A DNA stretch of 64,000 nucleotides from assembly GCA_021838635.1 (NCBI GenBank), contig JAKCDC010000001.1:62001-126000 (forward strand), read 5' to 3'. Source of the stretch: Pseudomonadota bacterium (GTDB lineage: Bacteria > Pseudomonadota > Gammaproteobacteria > Steroidobacterales > Steroidobacteraceae). Position numbers and translations under genes: made by a program. Positions 868-55,620 of the stretch are shown piece after piece (the first letter of the stretch is position 1; every line of letters begins with the position of its first letter). Under the pieces are notes generated by a model that did no database searches, was not told the origin of the DNA, and saw only the letters and a program-made list of their open reading frames with translations.

Positions 868-1018
868 GCGAGCGTGACCGAGCCGTTCTCAATCTGTGCC
901 GCGGCCGCCCCCGACCTGGGGGCGCGCCGTGGCTCAGCGGGGGACGCGGGCGTCGCGACACGGCGACATCCCCCTGCACTTTTGTGCTCGGACGGCCGAG
1001 GGGCTATGCTGCCACTCC

Positions 1019-1597
1019 ATGAGCAGCGTCTCCCGTTTGATTGTCCGGACGGCCCTGACCGCGCTGCTGTGCGCGGGCCTGCCGGCCGCCGGCTGGGCCG
1101 GCAACGGCAACAACTCCACGGTGTACAAGTGGGTCGACGCGCATGGCGTGATCCACTACAGCGATCAGCCACACCCGAACGCCACCAAGCTCAGCATCCG
1201 CGGCGCGCAGACCTATGCGCCGCCGCCGCCGATGCCCGCCGACTTCGGCGCCGCGCAGACCCCGAAGCGTACGCGCCCGACACGCGCATACAGCAGCTGC
1301 GAGGTCATACAGCCGCACAATCAGCAGATGCTGATGAACGTCTACCGCGCCACGGCCGTGGTCAGTACCCAGCCCGGGCTGCGGCCTGGCAACCGCGTGC
1401 AGCTGTTCCTCGACGGACGACGCATGCCGGGCGGGGGGCCTTCGTTTACCTTCCCGGTCGTACGCGGTCAGCATTCGGTGTCGGCCGTGGTCGTCAACTA
1501 CTATGGGCAGATTCTCTGCGAGACCCCGACGGTGACCTTCTACGTTCATCAACCGTCGATCCAGAATCCGCACAACCCCGTCGTGCACCCGTACTGA
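1019..1597 (+). CDS. DUF4124-domain-type secreted protein
   Basis: Signal peptide followed by VYKWVDAHGVIHYSDQP, the classical DUF4124 motif; located between glnA and ntrB. Confidence 0.8.
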   Translation: MSSVSRLIVRTALTALLCAGLPAAGWAGNGNNSTVYKWVDAHGVIHYSDQPHPNATKLSIRGAQTYAPPPPMPADFGAAQTPKRTRPTRAYSSCEVIQPHNQQMLMNVYRATAVVSTQPGLRPGNRVQLFLDGRRMPGGGPSFTFPVVRGQHSVSAVVVNYYGQILCETPTVTFYVHQPSIQNPHNPVVHPY

Positions 1598-1648
1598 GCC
1601 GCGCCGCGCTGCGCGCGCGGCGGGTGCCTTGCTTTCCCGAGGCGTGCC

Positions 1649-2743
1649 GTGGGCCGTGAGCACAGCGGAGCCTCGGCCCTCGAACACTTCGATCCGGCCG
1701 GCCTGTTCGATGCGCTCTCCACCGGCATCATCGTGCTCGATGCGCAGCTGTGCGCCATCTATGCCAATGTGGCTGCGCAGGACCTGCTGGCCTTCAGCCT
1801 GAACCAGGCGCGCGGCCGGCCCTTCACCGACTTTCTGCACGACAGCAACGGAGTGCGGACGCTGCTGCGGCGCGTCCTGTCCAGCGGCGAGGGCATCGCC
1901 GAGCGGGAACTCACGGTGCGGCCTGCGGCAACGCCCCGCGAGACGCGCACGCTCGACATTACGATGACGCCGCTCGAGGGCCAGATCACCGGCAATCACC
2001 TGCTGTTGGAGCTTGCCGACGCCACGCAGCGCCAACGGATCACACGCGAGAACGACCTGCTCGCACGCCTCGACGGCAGCCGCCTGATGATCCGCCAGCT
2101 GGCACACGAGATCAAAAATCCCCTCGGCGGCCTGCGCGGCGCGGCGCAGCTGCTCGAGCGCGAGCTGCCGGACGCGGCCCTGAGGGAATACACCCAGGTG
2201 ATCATCGGGGAGGCCGACCGCCTGGCCGCCCTGGTCGATTCGATCGCAGGCCCGGCGCGCGCCCCGGAGAAATCGCTGCTCAACGTGCACGAGATCTGCG
2301 AGCACGTGTTCCGGCTGCTGCGCGCCGAGGCGGCCGCCGAGGTTCTCATCGAGCGCGACTACGATCCCAGCCTGCCGAGTGCGCTGCTCGACCGCCATCA
2401 GCTCATCCAGGCATTGCTCAACGTGGCCCGCAACGCGCTGCAGGCGCTCGGCGGGCGCGGGCGCATCGTGCTGCGCACGCGTGCGCTGACCAACATGCGC
2501 ATCGGCTCGGCCCGGCACCGATGGGTCGCGAGCGTCCAGGTCCAGGATGATGGACCCGGTGTGCCGCCGCAGCTGCACACGAGTCTTTTCTATCCGCTGG
2601 TGACGGGCCGTCCCGACGGCACTGGCCTCGGACTTGCGGTGGCCCAGGAGCTGGTGAGCCGCAACGGGGGCCTGATCGAATTCGACAGCGAACCGGGGCG
2701 CACCGTCTTCACCCTGCTGCTGCCGCTCCTGGAGGACGAGTGA
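1649..2743 (+). CDS. ntrB: Nitrogen regulation sensor histidine kinase NtrB
   Basis: PAS region, LAHEIKNPLGGLRGAAQLL H-box, GDG/GLGLA ATPase motifs; overlaps ntrC. Confidence 0.93.
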   Translation: MGREHSGASALEHFDPAGLFDALSTGIIVLDAQLCAIYANVAAQDLLAFSLNQARGRPFTDFLHDSNGVRTLLRRVLSSGEGIAERELTVRPAATPRETRTLDITMTPLEGQITGNHLLLELADATQRQRITRENDLLARLDGSRLMIRQLAHEIKNPLGGLRGAAQLLERELPDAALREYTQVIIGEADRLAALVDSIAGPARAPEKSLLNVHEICEHVFRLLRAEAAAEVLIERDYDPSLPSALLDRHQLIQALLNVARNALQALGGRGRIVLRTRALTNMRIGSARHRWVASVQVQDDGPGVPPQLHTSLFYPLVTGRPDGTGLGLAVAQELVSRNGGLIEFDSEPGRTVFTLLLPLLEDE

Positions 2744-4173
2744 GCGACGCGCTGAGAGTGTGGATCATCGACGACGACACCTCGATCCGCTGGGTGCTCG
2801 AGCGCGCACTGCGCAACGACGGCATGGCCGCGCGCGCCTTCGAGTCGGCTGAAATGGCGCTCGAAGCGCTGCGGCGCGACGCACCCGACGTGCTGATGAC
2901 CGACATTCGCATGCCGGGCCAGTCGGGACTGGAGCTGCTGCGGCGTGTGCGCACCACGCGCCCGATCCTGCCGGTCATTGTCATGACGGCCCACTCCGAT
3001 CTGGGCAGTGCAGTGTCGGCCTACGAGGGTGGCGCGTTCGAGTACCTGCCCAAGCCCTTCGACATCGATCAGGCCGTTGCACTGGTGCGCCGCGCGGCGC
3101 GCATGCCCGCGACGGCCGCCGCCGAGGGCACCACCGAACCGCGCATGTCCGAACTGCTCGGCACCGCCCCGGCGATGCAGCAGGTGTTTCGCGGCATCGG
3201 TCGCCTGTCGCGCTCCAGCGTGACGGTGCTGATCACCGGGGAGTCCGGGACCGGCAAGGAACTGGTGGCGCGCGCGCTGCACGAACACAGTCCGCGCGCC
3301 GGCCGGCCGTTCATCGCGCTCAACACGGCAGCCATTCCGGGTGACCTGCTGGAGTCGGAGCTGTTCGGCCACGAGCGCGGCGCGTTCACCGGCGCCGACG
3401 CCCAACGCCGCGGTCGCTTCGAGCAGGCCGATGGCGGCACGCTGTTCCTCGATGAAATCGGCGACATGTCCACGCCGCTGCAGACCCGCCTGCTGCGAGT
3501 GCTCGCCGAGGGCGAGTTCTACCGCGTCGGGGGCCAGACCCCGATCCGGGTCGATGTGCGCGTGATCGCCGCGACCCATCAGAACCTGCAGGAACGGGTG
3601 GCGCAGGGCTCGTTCCGAGAAGATCTGTACCACCGCCTGAACGTGATCCGTCTCGCGCTGCCGGCGCTGCGCGAGCGGGCCGAGGACATCCCGCTGCTGC
3701 TGCGCCACTATCTGCGTACCGCGGCCCGCGACCTCGGCGTCGAGGCCAAGGCGCTCGCCCCGCAGGCCGAGCAGCGGCTGCTCGCCTATCGCTGGCCCGG
3801 CAACGTGCGTGAACTCGTCAACGTCTGCCGACGTCTCTCGGTGCTCGCGCCCGGCCGCGAGATCGGCACGGAGGACCTGCCGGTGGACATTGGCGTGAAC
3901 GGCCCGGATCAACCCGGTGAATGGCAGAACGCGCTCGCGGAGTGGGCGGCGCGCCAGGCGGCCAGTGGTGAGGGTGCCTTGCTCGACGTCGCGCTGCCGC
4001 AGTTCGAACGCGTCCTGATCCGCGCCGCGCTGAAGCGCACGCAGGGGCATCGGCAGGAGGCGGCACGGTTGCTCGGTTGGGGCCGCAACACCCTGACACG
4101 CAAGCTCAAGGAGCTGAACCTCGACCTCCCGCCGGCCGATGCCGGCCAGCACAGCGGCGAGGATTGCCTCTAG
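2740..4173 (+). CDS. ntrC: Nitrogen regulation response regulator NtrC (sigma54 activator)
   Basis: Receiver domain, GESGTGKE Walker A, ERGAFTGA sigma54 loop, C-terminal HTH. Confidence 0.95.
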   Translation: MSDALRVWIIDDDTSIRWVLERALRNDGMAARAFESAEMALEALRRDAPDVLMTDIRMPGQSGLELLRRVRTTRPILPVIVMTAHSDLGSAVSAYEGGAFEYLPKPFDIDQAVALVRRAARMPATAAAEGTTEPRMSELLGTAPAMQQVFRGIGRLSRSSVTVLITGESGTGKELVARALHEHSPRAGRPFIALNTAAIPGDLLESELFGHERGAFTGADAQRRGRFEQADGGTLFLDEIGDMSTPLQTRLLRVLAEGEFYRVGGQTPIRVDVRVIAATHQNLQERVAQGSFREDLYHRLNVIRLALPALRERAEDIPLLLRHYLRTAARDLGVEAKALAPQAEQRLLAYRWPGNVRELVNVCRRLSVLAPGREIGTEDLPVDIGVNGPDQPGEWQNALAEWAARQAASGEGALLDVALPQFERVLIRAALKRTQGHRQEAARLLGWGRNTLTRKLKELNLDLPPADAGQHSGEDCL

Positions 4174-48426: not shown

Positions 48427-48520
48427 ATTAGAGAGACAATGCTCGGCCGGCGTAATTATCTCTTTGCCGGATCGGACGCTGCCGGCGAGACCACAGCGCG
48501 TCTCTACAGCCTGATCGGCA
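48427..48520 (+). pseudogene. IS66-family transposase (TnpC) remnant, fragment 1
   Basis: MLGRRNYLFAGSDAAGETTARLYSLIGTC matches the IS66 TnpC C-terminal pattern; breaks off at the palindrome/RIT end and resumes at 55480 (fragment 2). Confidence 0.75.
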
Positions 48521-48550
48521 CCTGTCCATGCCGCATGCGGCATGGACAGG
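48521..48550. repeat. 30-bp perfect palindrome adjoining the left end of the outer RIT element
   Basis: cctgtccatgccgcatgcggcatggacagg is its own reverse complement. Confidence 0.93.
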
Positions 48551-48578
48551 TTCATGCCGAGCGCCTGACTATGCCGAA
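48550..48578 (+). repeat. Outer RIT terminal inverted repeat, left copy
   Basis: gttcatgccgagcgcctgactatgccgaa; exact reverse complement at 55448-55476. Confidence 0.92.
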
Positions 48579-48665: not shown

Positions 48666-49667
48666 TCACAGGCCATGGAGAAATTGCAGCAAGCGATCAG
48701 GCGGGCGATATCGGCCTTTGGATCGACCCTTCAAAATTGGAACCTTCGCCAGTGCGGCTTCCTTGAGCGCCATATGAGCATGCAGATAAACCTGCGTGGT
48801 CTCCATGGACTCGTGACCGAGCCACAACGCGATCACAGAACAGTCGACTCCAGCCTGGAGCAACTCCATCGCTGCGGTGTGGCGCAACACGTGCGGCGAG
48901 ACGCGTTTTTGCCTCAATGAGGCACACCGTGCACGAGCGACCTTGACGTACTTGCCGAGCAGATATTGTACGGCATCGCCGCTCAACCGACCACCGTGCA
49001 CGTTGGGGAAAAGCGCGACTGCGTTGTGCGGTGGCGGTTCCTTGAGCCAACGCTGCAGGGTCACCGTCAGTGGCCTCGGCAGTGGCGTACAACGCTCTTT
49101 GCGGCCCTTGCCGACACAGCTCACATGAGCGCCGGTGCCGAACGAAATTGAGTCCCGATCTAGCCCTATCAGCTCCGACAGGCGCAGGCCCGTCTGGATC
49201 GCGAGCGACAACAGGGTATGGTCGCGACGTCCGAGCCAAGTCGTCCGGTCTGGCGCGTCGAGAAGCGCCTCGATCTCCAGGCGATTGAGGAAATGAATCA
49301 GCTTCTTATCACCGCGTTTACTGGGGATCGCGAGCACACGTGCAATATGGGCGCTATAGGCGGGCTCTTCGAAGGCCACGAATCGGAAGAAGGAACGAAT
49401 GGCGGTGAGACGCAGGTTGCGGGTCCGCGTACTCGCCGCGCGCTGGGCCTCCTGGTGATCCAGAAAATCGCTGATCAGCGGAGCGTCGAGTTCGCCCAGT
49501 TCCAGCTCCGAAGGAGGCCTCTTGCGCCGCTGCGAGGCGAAGCCCAGGAACAGCCGAAAAGTGTCCCGGTACGAAGCGACGGTGTGCATGCTCACATGCT
49601 GCTGACGCATCAAGCGCTCGGTGAAGAAGCGCTCGATCAGTGCGGGCAGGGAAGATGTGCGGTTCAT
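48666..49667 (-). CDS. RIT tyrosine recombinase C (outer element)
   Basis: SPHVLRHTAAMELLQAGVDCSVIALWLGHESMETTQVYLH active-site region; ATGA overlap with the preceding B fragment. Confidence 0.93.
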   Translation of the reverse strand: MNRTSSLPALIERFFTERLMRQQHVSMHTVASYRDTFRLFLGFASQRRKRPPSELELGELDAPLISDFLDHQEAQRAASTRTRNLRLTAIRSFFRFVAFEEPAYSAHIARVLAIPSKRGDKKLIHFLNRLEIEALLDAPDRTTWLGRRDHTLLSLAIQTGLRLSELIGLDRDSISFGTGAHVSCVGKGRKERCTPLPRPLTVTLQRWLKEPPPHNAVALFPNVHGGRLSGDAVQYLLGKYVKVARARCASLRQKRVSPHVLRHTAAMELLQAGVDCSVIALWLGHESMETTQVYLHAHMALKEAALAKVPILKGRSKGRYRPPDRLLQFLHGL

Positions 49668-49858
49668 GATGCAGCCTCCCAACGATGGTCAAGCCGCTTG
49701 ACTGCCTCGCCGAGAAGCTCGGGGCATCCGGACAGGTACCAATATGTGTCTTGCACGCAGACATGACCCAGATACGTGGACAGCACCGGCAGCAGTTGTT
49801 CGATCGGCTGACCGGATCGATACCAGAGCACGAGCGTGCGTACCGCAAAACGATGGCG
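49664..49858 (-). pseudogene. RIT recombinase B (outer element), C-terminal fragment displaced by the inner RIT insertion
   Basis: Reverse strand reads RHRFAVRTLVLWYRSGQPIEQLLPVLSTYLGHVCVQDTYWYLSGCPELLGEAVKRLDHRWEAAS*, homologous to the end of inner RitB. Confidence 0.92.
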
Positions 49859-49886
49859 ATAATTCCGCCGGCGGAATTATCGCCAT
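49853..49886. repeat. 34-bp perfect palindrome at the left end of the inner RIT element
   Basis: atggcgataattccgccggcggaattatcgccat is its own reverse complement. Confidence 0.95.
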
Positions 49887-49981
49887 TGTTCCGGCAGCCG
49901 GATTATTCCGGCAACGGACGCTCGGGGGCTCTGTTTCCCGGGGGATCGCGCGATCGGGTACGCATCGGCGGCGGAATAATC
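49881..49981 (+). repeat. Inner RIT terminal inverted repeat, left copy
   Basis: cgccattgttccggcagccggattattccggcaacggacg...ggcggaataatc; 3 mismatches to the reverse complement of 53283-53383. Confidence 0.95.
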
Positions 49982-50163
49982 GGGGGCGCGTGCACGGCGC
50001 AAAGGCCGGCCGGTAGCCACCGAGACGGCGGTCACAAAACAGCTGGTTCCCGAAGGAAGCGGATTCATCGAGATCCCGCAGTGTCGATTTCGATCTCGAT
50101 ATTGTGGGTGCAGTCGGTTCTGGTCTCACGCGGGGGATCTTCCCCCTACCCAGGAGACAGACG

Positions 50164-51357
50164 ATGGCCAATCGCAGTGGGCCGATAGTCCCGCACATCG
50201 ATCAATTTGCCGAGTTCCTCACCGGCGAGGGTTACGCCTCGCAGACCGTAAAGACGAAGTGCGCGCTGGCAGTGGACCTCAGTCAATGGATCGCGCGGCA
50301 TGGACTAACGCTGACAAAGCTGGATGAGGAGAAGCTCCAGCAGTTTCACGGTCCCCGTCGCCGAGCAAGCGGACGCGGCGATCGATTCACCGGTGAGCAG
50401 TTGCTAATGTTTTTGCGCGACCGAGGTCTGACCCCCGTATTACATCCCGCCATCGATCGCTCCACTATGGGTCAGCTCGCACGCGACTACGAGAGATTCC
50501 TGAGTTGCGAGCGAGGCTTGGCGCGCGCGACTGTGGATGGTTATCTCCCCATCGTGCAGCGATTTCTGAACGCGCATTTTCAGAACAAGATCGTGCGTCT
50601 TCGCGACCTCACCCCGAGGGACCTGCATCGCTTCATTGTTCGTGAAGGGCAGCGTGTCGGTCGCAGGCATACCCAGCTGACCGTCACGGCACCGCGCTCG
50701 TTTCTGCGCTTTCTGCACCAGCGTGGCAAGACAAAGACAGACCTAGCCGGAGCATTGTTGGGGGTAGCTGATTGGCGACTGTCCGACATTCCAAAGTTTC
50801 TTCCGCCAGAGGAGGTCGAGCGAGTGCTCAAGAGCTGCGATCACAGCATGCCCTCCGGCCAGCGCGACTACGCGATCTTGCTGCTTCTGGCTCGACTGGG
50901 TTTGCGCGGTGGCGAAGTGCTCGCCATGACCTTGGACGATTTGGACTGGGAACGCGGCGAGGTGCTCGTCCGCGGCAAAGGTCAGAGATTCGAACGATTG
51001 CCGCTGCCTCAGGAGGTGGGCAAAGCGCTCGTTCACTATCTGCGTCATGTGCGTCCGACCTGTTCGACTCGCAAGGTCTTCATCCGGCTGAAAGCGCCGT
51101 GGCATGCCCTTCGCCTCAGCGCCATTTGCTGTGTGGTGCGTCGTGCCCTCAAGCGTGCCGGACTGAGTCCGGCGTTCAAAGGGGCGCACCTATTTCGCCA
51201 TTCCCTGGCAACGCAGATGCTGCGCCGAGGCGCATCGCTCGGGGAGATCGGCCAACTCCTTCGCCATCGCCAGCCGACGACGACGCAGATCTACGCCAAG
51301 GTTGATATCGACGCCCTGCGCGGCATTGCCCTTCCGTGGATGGGGGGTGGGGCATGA
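50164..51357 (+). CDS. RIT tyrosine recombinase A (inner element)
   Basis: GLRGGEVLAMTLDDLDW, HLFRHSLATQMLRRGASLGEIGQLLRHRQPTTTQIYAKVD. Confidence 0.94.
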   Translation: MANRSGPIVPHIDQFAEFLTGEGYASQTVKTKCALAVDLSQWIARHGLTLTKLDEEKLQQFHGPRRRASGRGDRFTGEQLLMFLRDRGLTPVLHPAIDRSTMGQLARDYERFLSCERGLARATVDGYLPIVQRFLNAHFQNKIVRLRDLTPRDLHRFIVREGQRVGRRHTQLTVTAPRSFLRFLHQRGKTKTDLAGALLGVADWRLSDIPKFLPPEEVERVLKSCDHSMPSGQRDYAILLLLARLGLRGGEVLAMTLDDLDWERGEVLVRGKGQRFERLPLPQEVGKALVHYLRHVRPTCSTRKVFIRLKAPWHALRLSAICCVVRRALKRAGLSPAFKGAHLFRHSLATQMLRRGASLGEIGQLLRHRQPTTTQIYAKVDIDALRGIALPWMGGGA

Positions 51358-52289
51358 GTTCGTTGCACACCGCGCTTGAGGAGTACCTCGCAGTACGTCG
51401 CGCCTTGGGATACAAGCTGCGCCTGGCCGGGCGGCTGTTGCAACGGTTCGTCGAGTTCGCCAAACGCGAGCGTGCGGACTACATTACCACCGAACTCGCC
51501 TTGAAGTGGGCGACCCAACCCGCCCATGCCACGCCAGTCCAGTGGGCCAACCGCTTGGGAATGGTGCGGCGCTTCGCAAGATACTGTCATGGCATCGATC
51601 CGCACAACGTAGTGCCGCCACCCGATCTGCTGCCCTATCAGTATCGGCGCGTCTCACCGAATCTCTACAGCGATGAGCAAGTTCTCGATCTGATCAAGGC
51701 GGCCCCGCAATTGCCCTCCGCGATCGGATTGCGACCGCACACGTTCGCCACGCTCTTTGGGTTGTACGTCGCTACCGGTCTGCGCGCGAACGAGGCATTG
51801 CATCTCCTTCGTGACGATGTGGACCTGGAAAGTGGCGTGCTCACCGTTCGCCAGAGCAAATTCGGCAAAAGCCGATACGTTCCGGTTCACGCTTCCACGC
51901 AACGCGCGTTGAAGCGTTATGCGAGGCGTCGGGATCGCCTGGTTCCCAGCCCCAGTAGTCCTTGCTTCTTTCTCTCCGACCGGGGCACTCGAGTGACCTA
52001 TGACGTGCTCCGCTGGACCTTCGTCAAACTCTCGCACCAGATTGGCCTTCGCGCTCCCGGCGACTCGCATGGACCGCGTCTGCATGGACTGCGCCACCGA
52101 CTGGCCATCCAGACACTGTTGAAGTGGTATCGCCGTGGCGTCGACGTCGAGCGCCACCTGCCGCAGCTTTCCACGTACTTGGGGCACGCCCACATCACGG
52201 ACACGCAGTGGTACCTGACGGCGACTCCGCAGTTACTGCGCTACGCACTGAAGCGGATGGAGCGATCGGAGCGGAGGGCTCGGTCATGA
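51354..52289 (+). CDS. RIT tyrosine recombinase B (inner element)
   Basis: LHGLRHRLAIQTLL...LSTYLGHAHITDTQWYLTATPQLLRYALKRM; ATGA overlaps with A and C. Confidence 0.94.
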   Translation: MSSLHTALEEYLAVRRALGYKLRLAGRLLQRFVEFAKRERADYITTELALKWATQPAHATPVQWANRLGMVRRFARYCHGIDPHNVVPPPDLLPYQYRRVSPNLYSDEQVLDLIKAAPQLPSAIGLRPHTFATLFGLYVATGLRANEALHLLRDDVDLESGVLTVRQSKFGKSRYVPVHASTQRALKRYARRRDRLVPSPSSPCFFLSDRGTRVTYDVLRWTFVKLSHQIGLRAPGDSHGPRLHGLRHRLAIQTLLKWYRRGVDVERHLPQLSTYLGHAHITDTQWYLTATPQLLRYALKRMERSERRARS

Positions 52290-53284
52290 ATGCCACCAAA
52301 TCCTTCCCCGTTCTGCTGGAGTCATTCTTCGTGGATCGACTGATGCAACAGCGACAGGTCAGTCCTCACACCATTGCCAGTTATCGCGATACTTTTCGCC
52401 TTCTGCTGCAGTACGTACAGCAACGCCTCGGTAGAGCGCCTTCGCAAGTAACCGTGCCGGACCTGGATACACCCTTCCTTGGTACGTTCCTCGATCACCT
52501 GGAGAAAAAACGCGGTAACAGCGCCCGCAGCCGCAACGTGCGCCTCGCCGCTATTCATTCCTTTTTTCGCTACGTTGCCTTGCATGCACCGGAGTACAGT
52601 GCCCTGGCGCAGCGCGTGCTGGCCATACCCAGTAAACGCTACGTGCGTCGGGCCATCTGCTTTCTCACGCCGGCGGAAACGGACGCTCTGCTTGCAGCTC
52701 CAGACCTCAAAACCTGGAGCGGGCGGCGCGATCGAGCGATATTGCTCCTCGCCGTGCAGACTGGACTGCGGGCGGCAGAAGTCATCGGACTTCGCTGCGA
52801 GAACATCATCCTGGGAACTGGCGCACACGTACAATGCTTGGGCAAAGGCAGGAAGACCCGATGCACACCGCTTCGTAGGGAAGCGGTGTCGGTGCTGCGC
52901 GCTTGGTTGCGGGAACGCGAGGGGCAACCGTCCGATCCGCTTTTCCCGACTACGCGGGGCACCGCCTTGGGACATGACGGCTTGGAATACCTGCTCGAAA
53001 AGCATCTGCTTGTCGCTCGCCGTCACTGCCCGTCATTGATCAAGAAACGGGTGACGTTCCATTCCCTGAGGCACTCATTGGCAATGACCTTACTTCGCCA
53101 TGGCGTCGATCGTTCCGTGATCGCGCTCTGGTTGGGTCACGAGAACGTTGAAACCACATCGATGTACCTGCAAGCTGACATGCAGCTCAAGGAAGATGCC
53201 TTGGCAAAAACGGCCGCTACAAAGGCGCGTACCACTCGGTATCGGCCCAGCGATCGCATCTTGGCCTTCCTCAATACCCTCTGA
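52286..53284 (+). CDS. RIT tyrosine recombinase C (inner element)
   Basis: TFHSLRHSLAMTLLRHGVDRSVIALWLGHENVETTSMYLQ; stop codon lies at the edge of the right inverted repeat. Confidence 0.94.
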   Translation: MNATKSFPVLLESFFVDRLMQQRQVSPHTIASYRDTFRLLLQYVQQRLGRAPSQVTVPDLDTPFLGTFLDHLEKKRGNSARSRNVRLAAIHSFFRYVALHAPEYSALAQRVLAIPSKRYVRRAICFLTPAETDALLAAPDLKTWSGRRDRAILLLAVQTGLRAAEVIGLRCENIILGTGAHVQCLGKGRKTRCTPLRREAVSVLRAWLREREGQPSDPLFPTTRGTALGHDGLEYLLEKHLLVARRHCPSLIKKRVTFHSLRHSLAMTLLRHGVDRSVIALWLGHENVETTSMYLQADMQLKEDALAKTAATKARTTRYRPSDRILAFLNTL

Positions 53285-53383
53285 TTATTCCGCCACCGAT
53301 GCGTACCCGCTCGCGCGATCCCCCGGGAAACAGAGCCCCCGAACGTCCGTTGCCGGAATAATCCGGCTGCCGGAACAATGGCG
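53283..53383 (-). repeat. Inner RIT terminal inverted repeat, right copy
   Basis: Reverse complement matches 49881-49981 at 98/101 positions by eye. Confidence 0.95.
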
Positions 53384-54115
53384 AAAGTCATGAATGCGAG
53401 GCCCGGTGTGATCCGAGGGGTTCCGCGGACCGATCTGTCGCGAGAGTCGCCAGAACACTGTATACACGTACTGGTGCCGCAGTCGCCCACCTTGCTCCGC
53501 AACGAAGAAATAAGGGCTTCGAGGCGGATCAAGATGCGCATCTCGTTGCCTGGCGTAACGGCGAAGGATCGTACAGGTCGTCGCATGCAGGGGCACCAGA
53601 CGCGTCTTACCGAACTTGGCCCCGTCAATCCTGAGAATCCCTTCCGTGAGATCAACATCGGTGCGCTTCAGGGCCATTGCCTCGCCGATCCGCAGGCCTG
53701 TGACAATGAGCAGCCCAAACAGGCAATGATAGGTCCAGCGACGCAGTGCTTTGGCCGGCGGCAAGGCGAACGCTGCCGCCAGAAGCTGGCTGATCTCACG
53801 ATCCGAATACAGGTGGGGCTTGGTGCGCTTAGAATAAGGCAGCACTCGCGCGGGCAGCACCGCCGTACGAGGCTCGCGACTACGCAAATACTGACTCAAC
53901 CCGCGCACGTCAGAAAACCGCAGAGCCCACGAGGCTCGCTTGTTCGGCGGTTGCGTTGCCCACTCCAAAGCGAGCGGATACGTAATGACCGTGGCCTTAC
54001 GTTGCGCCATAAAGCGGACGAAGCCCTTCAGTCGTTGCTCCGGAGCGAAGAACTTGAATCCAAGGCTGCGGCGCAGGGCGATGTACTCCGCCACGGCGGT
54101 CTCTAAGGCGCTCAT
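53378..54115 (-). pseudogene. RIT recombinase B (outer element), N-terminal fragment
   Basis: MSALETAVAEYIALRRSLGFKFF...GPRIHDFRH, then runs into the inverted repeat (CSGSRIIPATD...); continuation lies at 49858-49664. Confidence 0.92.
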
Positions 54116-55350
54116 GACACACCGCCCGGCCACCGCATCGCCAAACCCCGCAATGCCTCAATATCGACCTTGGCATAAATCCGAGTGCTGTCTTGAGAGC
54201 GATGGCGCAGAAGCTGCCCGATCTGCGTCAGCGACGCTCCGGAGCGCAGTAATGTGGTGGCCAAAGTATGTCGGAACACATGCGCGCCTTTACGAGGCGT
54301 GTCGACCTGCGCTCGATCGAGCGCCGTGCGCGCAATCATCGTCACACTTGCAGCCGATGCGAAGCCGATCTGCGGGGCCCACTCGCGCAGAAATACTCGT
54401 CGGCTTTGGGAGCGCGGCCTGCCATGTTGTAGATAATCGCCGATCGCGGCTCCCACCTCGCTCGGCAGTGGCATCTGCGCTCTTTGACGTGCTTTTCCCC
54501 GGATCGACAACACGCCATCCTGCCAATCGATATCCTGAAGGCACAACGTCGCTACTTCACTGGCTCTCAATCCCAGGCGTGCGAGCAGTAGCAGCACCGC
54601 GTAGTCTCGCCGACCAAGTGATGTGCTTCGATCGATGGCATCGAGAACCTTCTGGACTTCTCCACGCGCCAGATATCGGGGCAACGATGCGAATCGCCAG
54701 GTCCGCACCGAAGGAACAGCACTCGCCAAGTCGATCGAAATCAAATCCTTGTAGCGCAGATAGCGCAAGAACGAACGCAGCGTCCAGCACATGCGACTCG
54801 TGGAACGCGCGCTTTGATGCGGCGCGTGATGAGCCACGAAGCTCACGATGTCCGCGGCGACGAGTCTGGAGAGGCCCCTCGGCCCGCTCTTGCAGTGCTC
54901 GGCGAGAAATCGCCGCAAGGTGGGCAGATGCGTAATGATGGTCCTCGGAGCATAGCCTCCTTGCTCGCGAAGGTGATGCCGGAAGTCCGCGACAATCTGC
55001 TCATCAGCGCTCAGATGAGGCAGACGCTGCGGCGCAATCAGCGCTTCCTCGCGCAGTACGGCAAGGAACCGGTTCAATGCGGGTCGATCGCTCAGAAAGG
55101 GATGGCGATACCGCACGCGGAACGCCATATAGCGATTTACGACCGCCTCGTCGATGTCTCCAACGACTATGCCTCTGCGGGCAAGCCACCGACCGAAATC
55201 GTCGACCACCCGAATGTTGCGCCAGGCACTCTGCTTACAATGCCCTTCCGCTAAAAGCCGGGCGGAAAACAACTCCAGGTGCGCCCCCAACGGGCCCTGA
55301 CGCAAACGACGCAACCTCTGGGGCTTCTTGATGAACGTAGCCGTAGCCAT
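54112..55350 (-). CDS. RIT tyrosine recombinase A (outer element)
   Basis: GLRASEVATLCLQDIDW, HVFRHTLATTLLRSGASLTQIGQLLRHRSQDSTRIYAKVD; ATGA overlap with B. Confidence 0.94.
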   Translation of the reverse strand: MATATFIKKPQRLRRLRQGPLGAHLELFSARLLAEGHCKQSAWRNIRVVDDFGRWLARRGIVVGDIDEAVVNRYMAFRVRYRHPFLSDRPALNRFLAVLREEALIAPQRLPHLSADEQIVADFRHHLREQGGYAPRTIITHLPTLRRFLAEHCKSGPRGLSRLVAADIVSFVAHHAPHQSARSTSRMCWTLRSFLRYLRYKDLISIDLASAVPSVRTWRFASLPRYLARGEVQKVLDAIDRSTSLGRRDYAVLLLLARLGLRASEVATLCLQDIDWQDGVLSIRGKARQRAQMPLPSEVGAAIGDYLQHGRPRSQSRRVFLREWAPQIGFASAASVTMIARTALDRAQVDTPRKGAHVFRHTLATTLLRSGASLTQIGQLLRHRSQDSTRIYAKVDIEALRGLAMRWPGGVS

Positions 55351-55447: not shown

Positions 55448-55476
55448 TTCGGCATAGTCAGGCGCTCGGCATGAAC
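55448..55476 (-). repeat. Outer RIT terminal inverted repeat, right copy
   Basis: ttcggcatagtcaggcgctcggcatgaac, reverse complement of 48550-48578. Confidence 0.92.
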
Positions 55477-55479
55477 GTG

Positions 55480-55620
55480 CCGACTGAACGACATCGATCC
55501 GCATGCCCATCTGCACTATGTGCTCGAGCGCGTCGCTGCGCACACCATCCACCGCATCGATGAGCTCCTGCCGTGGTGCGTGTCTCATCGACTCACCCAG
55601 CCGCTGACACAAGCCGCATG
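55480..55620 (+). pseudogene. IS66-family transposase (TnpC) remnant, fragment 2 (C-terminus)
   Basis: CRLNDIDPHAHLHYVLERVAAHTIHRIDELLPWCVSHRLTQPLTQAA*, the RIDELLPW tail typical of IS66 TnpC; continues fragment 1 at 48427-48520. Confidence 0.85.

Follow-up and report, generated by a model that had tools for sequence, protein, structure and literature searches.

RIT elements (recombinase in trio) are frequent on plasmids, rhizobial ones among them. They carry the overlapping tyrosine recombinase genes ritA, ritB and ritC on about 3.5 kb, have short terminal inverted repeats (TIRs) and lie in IS66 or other genes (PMC2864759, PMC3414803), insertions into IS66 and radC genes being already known (PMC2864759). 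A 2012 survey found the variability of RIT ends puzzling and mentioned in passing, with no model, a 28-29-bp inverted repeat and an 'overlapping palindromic sequence' (PMC3414803). This literature contains no explanation of the palindrome, no rule for the side of the target on which it lies, no two-site joint, no hexamer bias and no insertion into a catalytic motif (PMC2864759, PMC3414803). The literature covered likewise holds no experimental proof of RIT mobility; the principal survey of RITs (Ricker et al. 2013) lies outside this comparison, and it is possible that a fuller earlier account of the palindrome is given there. Among other systems, the strand-biased circularizing integrative elements (SEs) employ tyrosine recombinases, a 6-bp spacer and inverted repeat motifs C and C′, and after integration the target hexamer is found at C and the circle hexamer at C′ (PMC10214605). 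GInts (PMC5385486) and Tn554 resemble RITs in their several tyrosine recombinases, 6-bp staggered cuts and coupling bases taken from targets, but no palindromic joint segment has been reported for them, and their gene sets include ginD/tnpC, which are absent from RITs.

In the window, the whole 64-kb stretch of DNA analysed here, an inner RIT (49853-53384) interrupts the ritB gene of an outer RIT. The inner element contains three overlapping genes on the forward strand in the order ritA (50164..51357, 397 aa), ritB (51354..52289, 311 aa) and ritC (52286..53284, 332 aa), all matching the tyrosine recombinase family PF00589 above cut-off (2e-26, 3e-20 and 2e-30, respectively). Solely these three genes lie between its repeats, and the SE gene set intA-tfp-intB-srap is not present. 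An inverted-repeat search placed the ritA-side TIR at 49886..49986 (forward strand) and the ritC-side TIR, with no palindrome beyond it, at 53278..53378 (reverse strand), about 3.5 kb apart; with the adjoining bases, the inverted repeat extends over 107 nt (49880-49986 / 53278-53384) at 95% identity. Relatives of the element occupy different target genes whose frames are restored when the flanks are joined, as is characteristic of precise insertion. In its own genome, the inner RIT is a single copy.

The preliminary description had reported a perfect 34-bp palindrome at one end of this element, and a direct re-reading of positions 49853-49886 confirmed it (ATGGCGATAATTCCGCC/GGCGGAATTATCGCCAT, 17+17). 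The palindrome is restricted to the ritA-side end; the right end, as had also been described, passes directly into atggcg and flanking DNA (CCGGAACA-ATGGCG-aaagtcatg). In a palindrome scan of the 64-kb window, only this sequence and the one at 48520-48551 were perfect palindromes with arms of at least 14, and the composition-corrected chance expectation for one with arms of at least 17 was about 2e-5. The 34 bp are made up of an element-carried core (20-22 bp) and two 6-bp crossover hexamers. The distal hexamer TGGCGA (49854..49859; TCGCCA when read along the target gene) is the outer crossover site, between the 3′ half of the target and the palindrome; among relatives it varies and partly follows the target. 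It is followed by the core TAATTCCGCCGGCGGAATTA (49860..49879) and by the proximal hexamer TCGCCA (49880..49885), a carried sequence that adjoins the ritA-side TIR and constitutes the second crossover site. At the opposite end, the target hexamer TGGCGA (53379..53384) adjoins the ritC-side TIR and is the same as in the rebuilt empty site. The palindrome is perfect over 34 bp because the carried and target hexamers are equal in this copy; the carried hexamer is unlike the target hexamer in L016, L041, L060, L073 and other insertions.

Joining of the flanks at the hexamer yielded a single frame (...GPRIHDFR/HRFAVRTLVLWYRSG...) sharing 49% identity with inner RitB across the joint. The 5′ half of the outer ritB (53385..54115, reverse strand), delimited in the joined frame against inner RitB, ends in ...IHDF(R/H), and its 3′ half (HRFAVRTLVLWYRSG..., 49689..49853, reverse strand) follows in the joined frame, so that the insertion point falls between the codon for Arg and the codon for His in the catalytic motif H-x-x-R-H. 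The frame was restored without any palindrome sequence, and the inner 22 bp of the palindrome were absent from both the right flank and the rebuilt target ORF, which bears out the earlier claim that they are not target DNA. Restoration of the frame with insertion at the same Arg/His point was observed in 12 of 14 insertions into various recombinase genes, the window included; for L049 the junction was judged by eye and agrees with this point. In L013 the flanks are chimaeric, with a transposase-like gene on the left and a ritB half on the right, reflecting either a chimaeric insertion or the assembly. The lineage inserted between the Arg and His codons comprises the window element, L014, L016, L041, L044-L046 and L067-L069, and its targets are often the ritB gene of another RIT. 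These RITs separate two codons of the catalytic motif of other tyrosine recombinases and therefore disable other elements.

The outer RIT retains ritA (54112..55350, reverse strand; PF00589, 8e-26) and ritC (48666..49682, reverse strand; PF00589, 6e-30), and the second palindrome of the scan, a perfect one of 32 bp (48520..48551), lies at its ritC end only. This palindrome is followed by the left terminal repeat (48552..48578), whose inverted partner is at 55448-55474, and a putative target hexamer, ACGTGC (55475..55480), adjoins the right terminal repeat. The target of the outer RIT is the remnant of an IS66 transposase gene, of which the joined flanks encode a C-terminal part (PF13817 IS66_C, 1e-16); its empty IS66 site was not found among 20 relatives.

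To compare the ends of independent copies, as the preliminary description had proposed, 43 distinct RIT insertions were scored with a cut-off for a strong palindrome of 9 of 10 pairs, which has a null rate of 1.4% per end. A strong palindrome was present at exactly one end in 25 insertions (ritA end in 18, ritC end in 7) and at both ends in none, against 1.2 palindromic ends expected by chance over the 43. The remaining 18 were below the cut-off at both ends; many of these are imperfect, recombined or disrupted, or have misplaced ends. The core is imperfect in some families (those with TIR CACTATC..., L058, L062, L069, L087), and no recognisable palindrome was seen on the expected side in L057 and L063. 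The ends of L010, L012, L015 (contig ends) and L042 were unplaced, and those of L039, misplaced by the automatic scoring, were taken from a separate reading of the locus. In L040 a unit composed of genes for a tyrosine recombinase and an IS91-family transposase (969-3619) separates the palindrome from the TIR; similar ends adjoin the TIRs of L063 and L085 and are also seen near L076, as if this unit targeted RIT attachment sites.

The core travels with the element. The relatives L013, L014 and L016 have the same 20-bp core as the inner RIT (TAATTCCGCC/GGCGGAATTA), at one end each, and in L016 (GTGACG-ATAATTCCGCC/GGCGGAATTAG-CGCCAT) the core is constant while the neighbouring bases differ; a search through 369 genomes of the class gave no further genome with exactly this 20-bp sequence. 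Genome G247 has one CTTATGCCGCGCGCGGCATAAG in each of its five near-identical RIT copies (5/5) and no solo core, and the same relation of one core per RIT copy without solo cores was observed in S. meliloti (2/2), R. leguminosarum (3/3) and Mesorhizobium AR02 (3/3). In two of the five G247 copies, L048 and L049, the ritB frame is broken near residue 200, the elements being otherwise near-identical. The recurrence of the core, once per near-identical copy and at different sites, upholds the suggestion that the palindrome is carried by the element on one side only.

For L060, L066, L073, L061, L065 and L041/L068, a joined-flank search identified the target in uninterrupted form on other plasmids, and the palindrome was present in none of these sequenced empty sites, nor in the rebuilt target of the window; for L043 and L067 the search found no uninterrupted site. 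Many RITs do have adjoining palindromes, as would be expected if they inserted preferentially beside palindromes already present in the host. This explanation is refuted for the tested sites by the intact target genes on other plasmids, which lack the palindrome, and sites unrelated to each other carry one and the same core; we consider its probability negligible.

The empty sites also revealed where the two hexamers go. In all five informative insertions of related RITs (L041, L061, L065, L066 and L073), the hexamer of the empty site was found beside the TIR and a different, element-derived hexamer beside the palindrome. In G247 the hexamer on the palindrome side is constant and that on the TIR side varies with the target (three inferred cases). 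The five insertions alone give a two-sided p of 0.06, and 0.008 is reached with the three G247 cases; the window copy, in which all hexamers are equal, is uninformative on this bias. A crossover point inside the hexamer, derived from the CGN/CAY pattern of recombinase-gene targets, was considered and dropped, since the empty sites of the IS66 family show exchange of the hexamer as a whole block. In this strand-biased placement of a 6-bp spacer, the sequence comparisons suggest that RITs work like SEs.

The side on which the palindrome lies is fixed relative to the target, whatever the orientation of the element, and both its ritA and its ritC end can bear it. In recombinase-gene targets the palindrome adjoins the 3′ half of the gene, at the ritA end in the window, L014, L016, L041, L044-L046, L049 and L067 and at the ritC end in L039, L043 and L068. 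In IS66 targets it adjoins the 5′ half, at the ritA end in L060, L064, L065 and L066 and at the ritC end in L061, L073 and the outer RIT of the window. L011 has 5′ halves on both flanks and no palindrome, and L038 has 3′ halves on both flanks and palindrome sequence on each side; both appear to have arisen by recombination between RIT copies. The palindrome might instead be a passenger, such as a transcription terminator or a regulatory operator, located at the end by chance, and the poor symmetry in some families would fit this view, the binding of Rit proteins to the palindrome being putative. Nevertheless, the target side is constant while the element end changes, crossover hexamers always adjoin the palindrome, and its arms track the TIR motif of each family: over 13 RIT families, the palindrome matched the TIR of its own family better than those of other families (permutation p < 1e-4), extending to the families a resemblance first noted in the window. 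A passenger is thus a very unlikely explanation.

Pairs of copies in opposite orientations were especially informative. On a plasmid of Mesorhizobium AR02, L041 and L068 are near-identical RITs inserted in opposite orientations into copies of one target, and their slightly asymmetric core (CCGGG/TTCGG) is reversed against the target and unchanged against the element. Because the asymmetry turns with the element, the core belongs to the joint of the element, and both of its sides have been used for integration. An origin of this pair by inversion in place between the TIRs was ruled out, as the core had turned along with the element. In S. meliloti, L060 and L073 led, from opposite sides, to the same joint, TIR_C-ACCTGC-core-ACCGCC-TIR_A. 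These pairs also bear on the possibility that the palindrome is created at each insertion by the opening of a hairpin end, as in a telomere-like linear form. The window copy, symmetric throughout including its hexamers, is what such opening would produce, but a freshly opened hairpin would always be perfect, whereas imperfect cores exist and asymmetric cores and unequal hexamers are passed on unchanged between copies. This contradicts new formation of the palindrome by hairpin opening, to which we assign even less probability than to the passenger, and removes the need for the hairpin intermediate that the preliminary description had contemplated.

We propose that the palindrome is, with good probability, the joint segment of the presumed circular form of the RIT, with two crossover sites back to back. 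From the ritC-side TIR to the ritA-side TIR, the joint of the circle would run through a hexamer, the palindromic core and a second hexamer. Each core half, together with the TIR tip next to it, would make up a full tyrosine-recombinase site with a 6-bp overlap in its middle; the TIR tips would represent one type of arm and the core halves the other. Upon integration through one of the sites, one half of the target would be joined to a TIR and the other to the outer edge of the palindrome, the palindrome entering the target together with the element. Since the two half-sites would lie back to back in the joint, only one end of the integrated element would have the palindrome, and since both ends of the joint would be alike, either site could be used, in either orientation, while the palindrome would keep to one side of the target. 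A strand bias would leave the target hexamer at the TIR and the element hexamer at the palindrome. From the arrangement of the integrated copies we infer that a circle forms, that Rit proteins bind the core and that mainly one strand is exchanged. The earlier suggestion of a crossover or coupling segment therefore holds for the 6-bp blocks beside the core and not for the core itself, which would be a fixed pair of half-sites.

In Tn916-type conjugative transposons, as in RITs, the hexamer beside the element end moves from target to target, but these transposons are not known to carry more than the coupling hexamers, and a fixed palindromic segment between them distinguishes RITs. In SEs, the hexamer bias between C and C′ corresponds to that between TIR and palindrome in RITs, although in SEs the motifs C and C′ are at opposite ends and the four genes are different ones (PMC10214605). 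Both RIT ends, on the other hand, are C-like, and the joint deduced here would hold two C′-like arms back to back.

The integron attC site is a palindromic tyrosine recombinase site at which a folded single strand is the substrate and one strand is exchanged. RITs share the palindromic site, but the observations on RITs require no folding. A similar route, in which one strand of the joint folds (as in integron attC or CTXphi) and is exchanged singly and then replicated, would find some support in the full hairpin that the 34-mer can form (-23 kcal/mol, computed as RNA), in the joint predicted for the window, an inverted repeat that is nearly perfect over about 120 bp, and in the hexamer bias, which suggests one-strand exchange. 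However, the double-stranded two-site joint accounts for all observations, the same strand bias occurs in SEs, whose circles are double-stranded (PMC10214605), and cores with mismatched arms persist (L016, L069). We regard a folded substrate as unlikely, if less so than the passenger. A broader scheme is somewhat less doubtful and is advanced tentatively: RITs may transpose by one-strand copy-out and copy-in via a palindromic double attachment site, maybe as a folded single strand, the differences among the arms of target, TIR and palindrome calling for three recombinases. If this were true, RITs would have a solution of their own, the third after those of integron attC and SE attS.

For the RIT family, the two-site palindromic joint would explain why the palindrome is single-sided, why the ends of these elements vary and why their orientation is free. 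It would also provide exact element boundaries for annotation and sharp predictions on the sequence of the circle joint and the fate of the hexamers.
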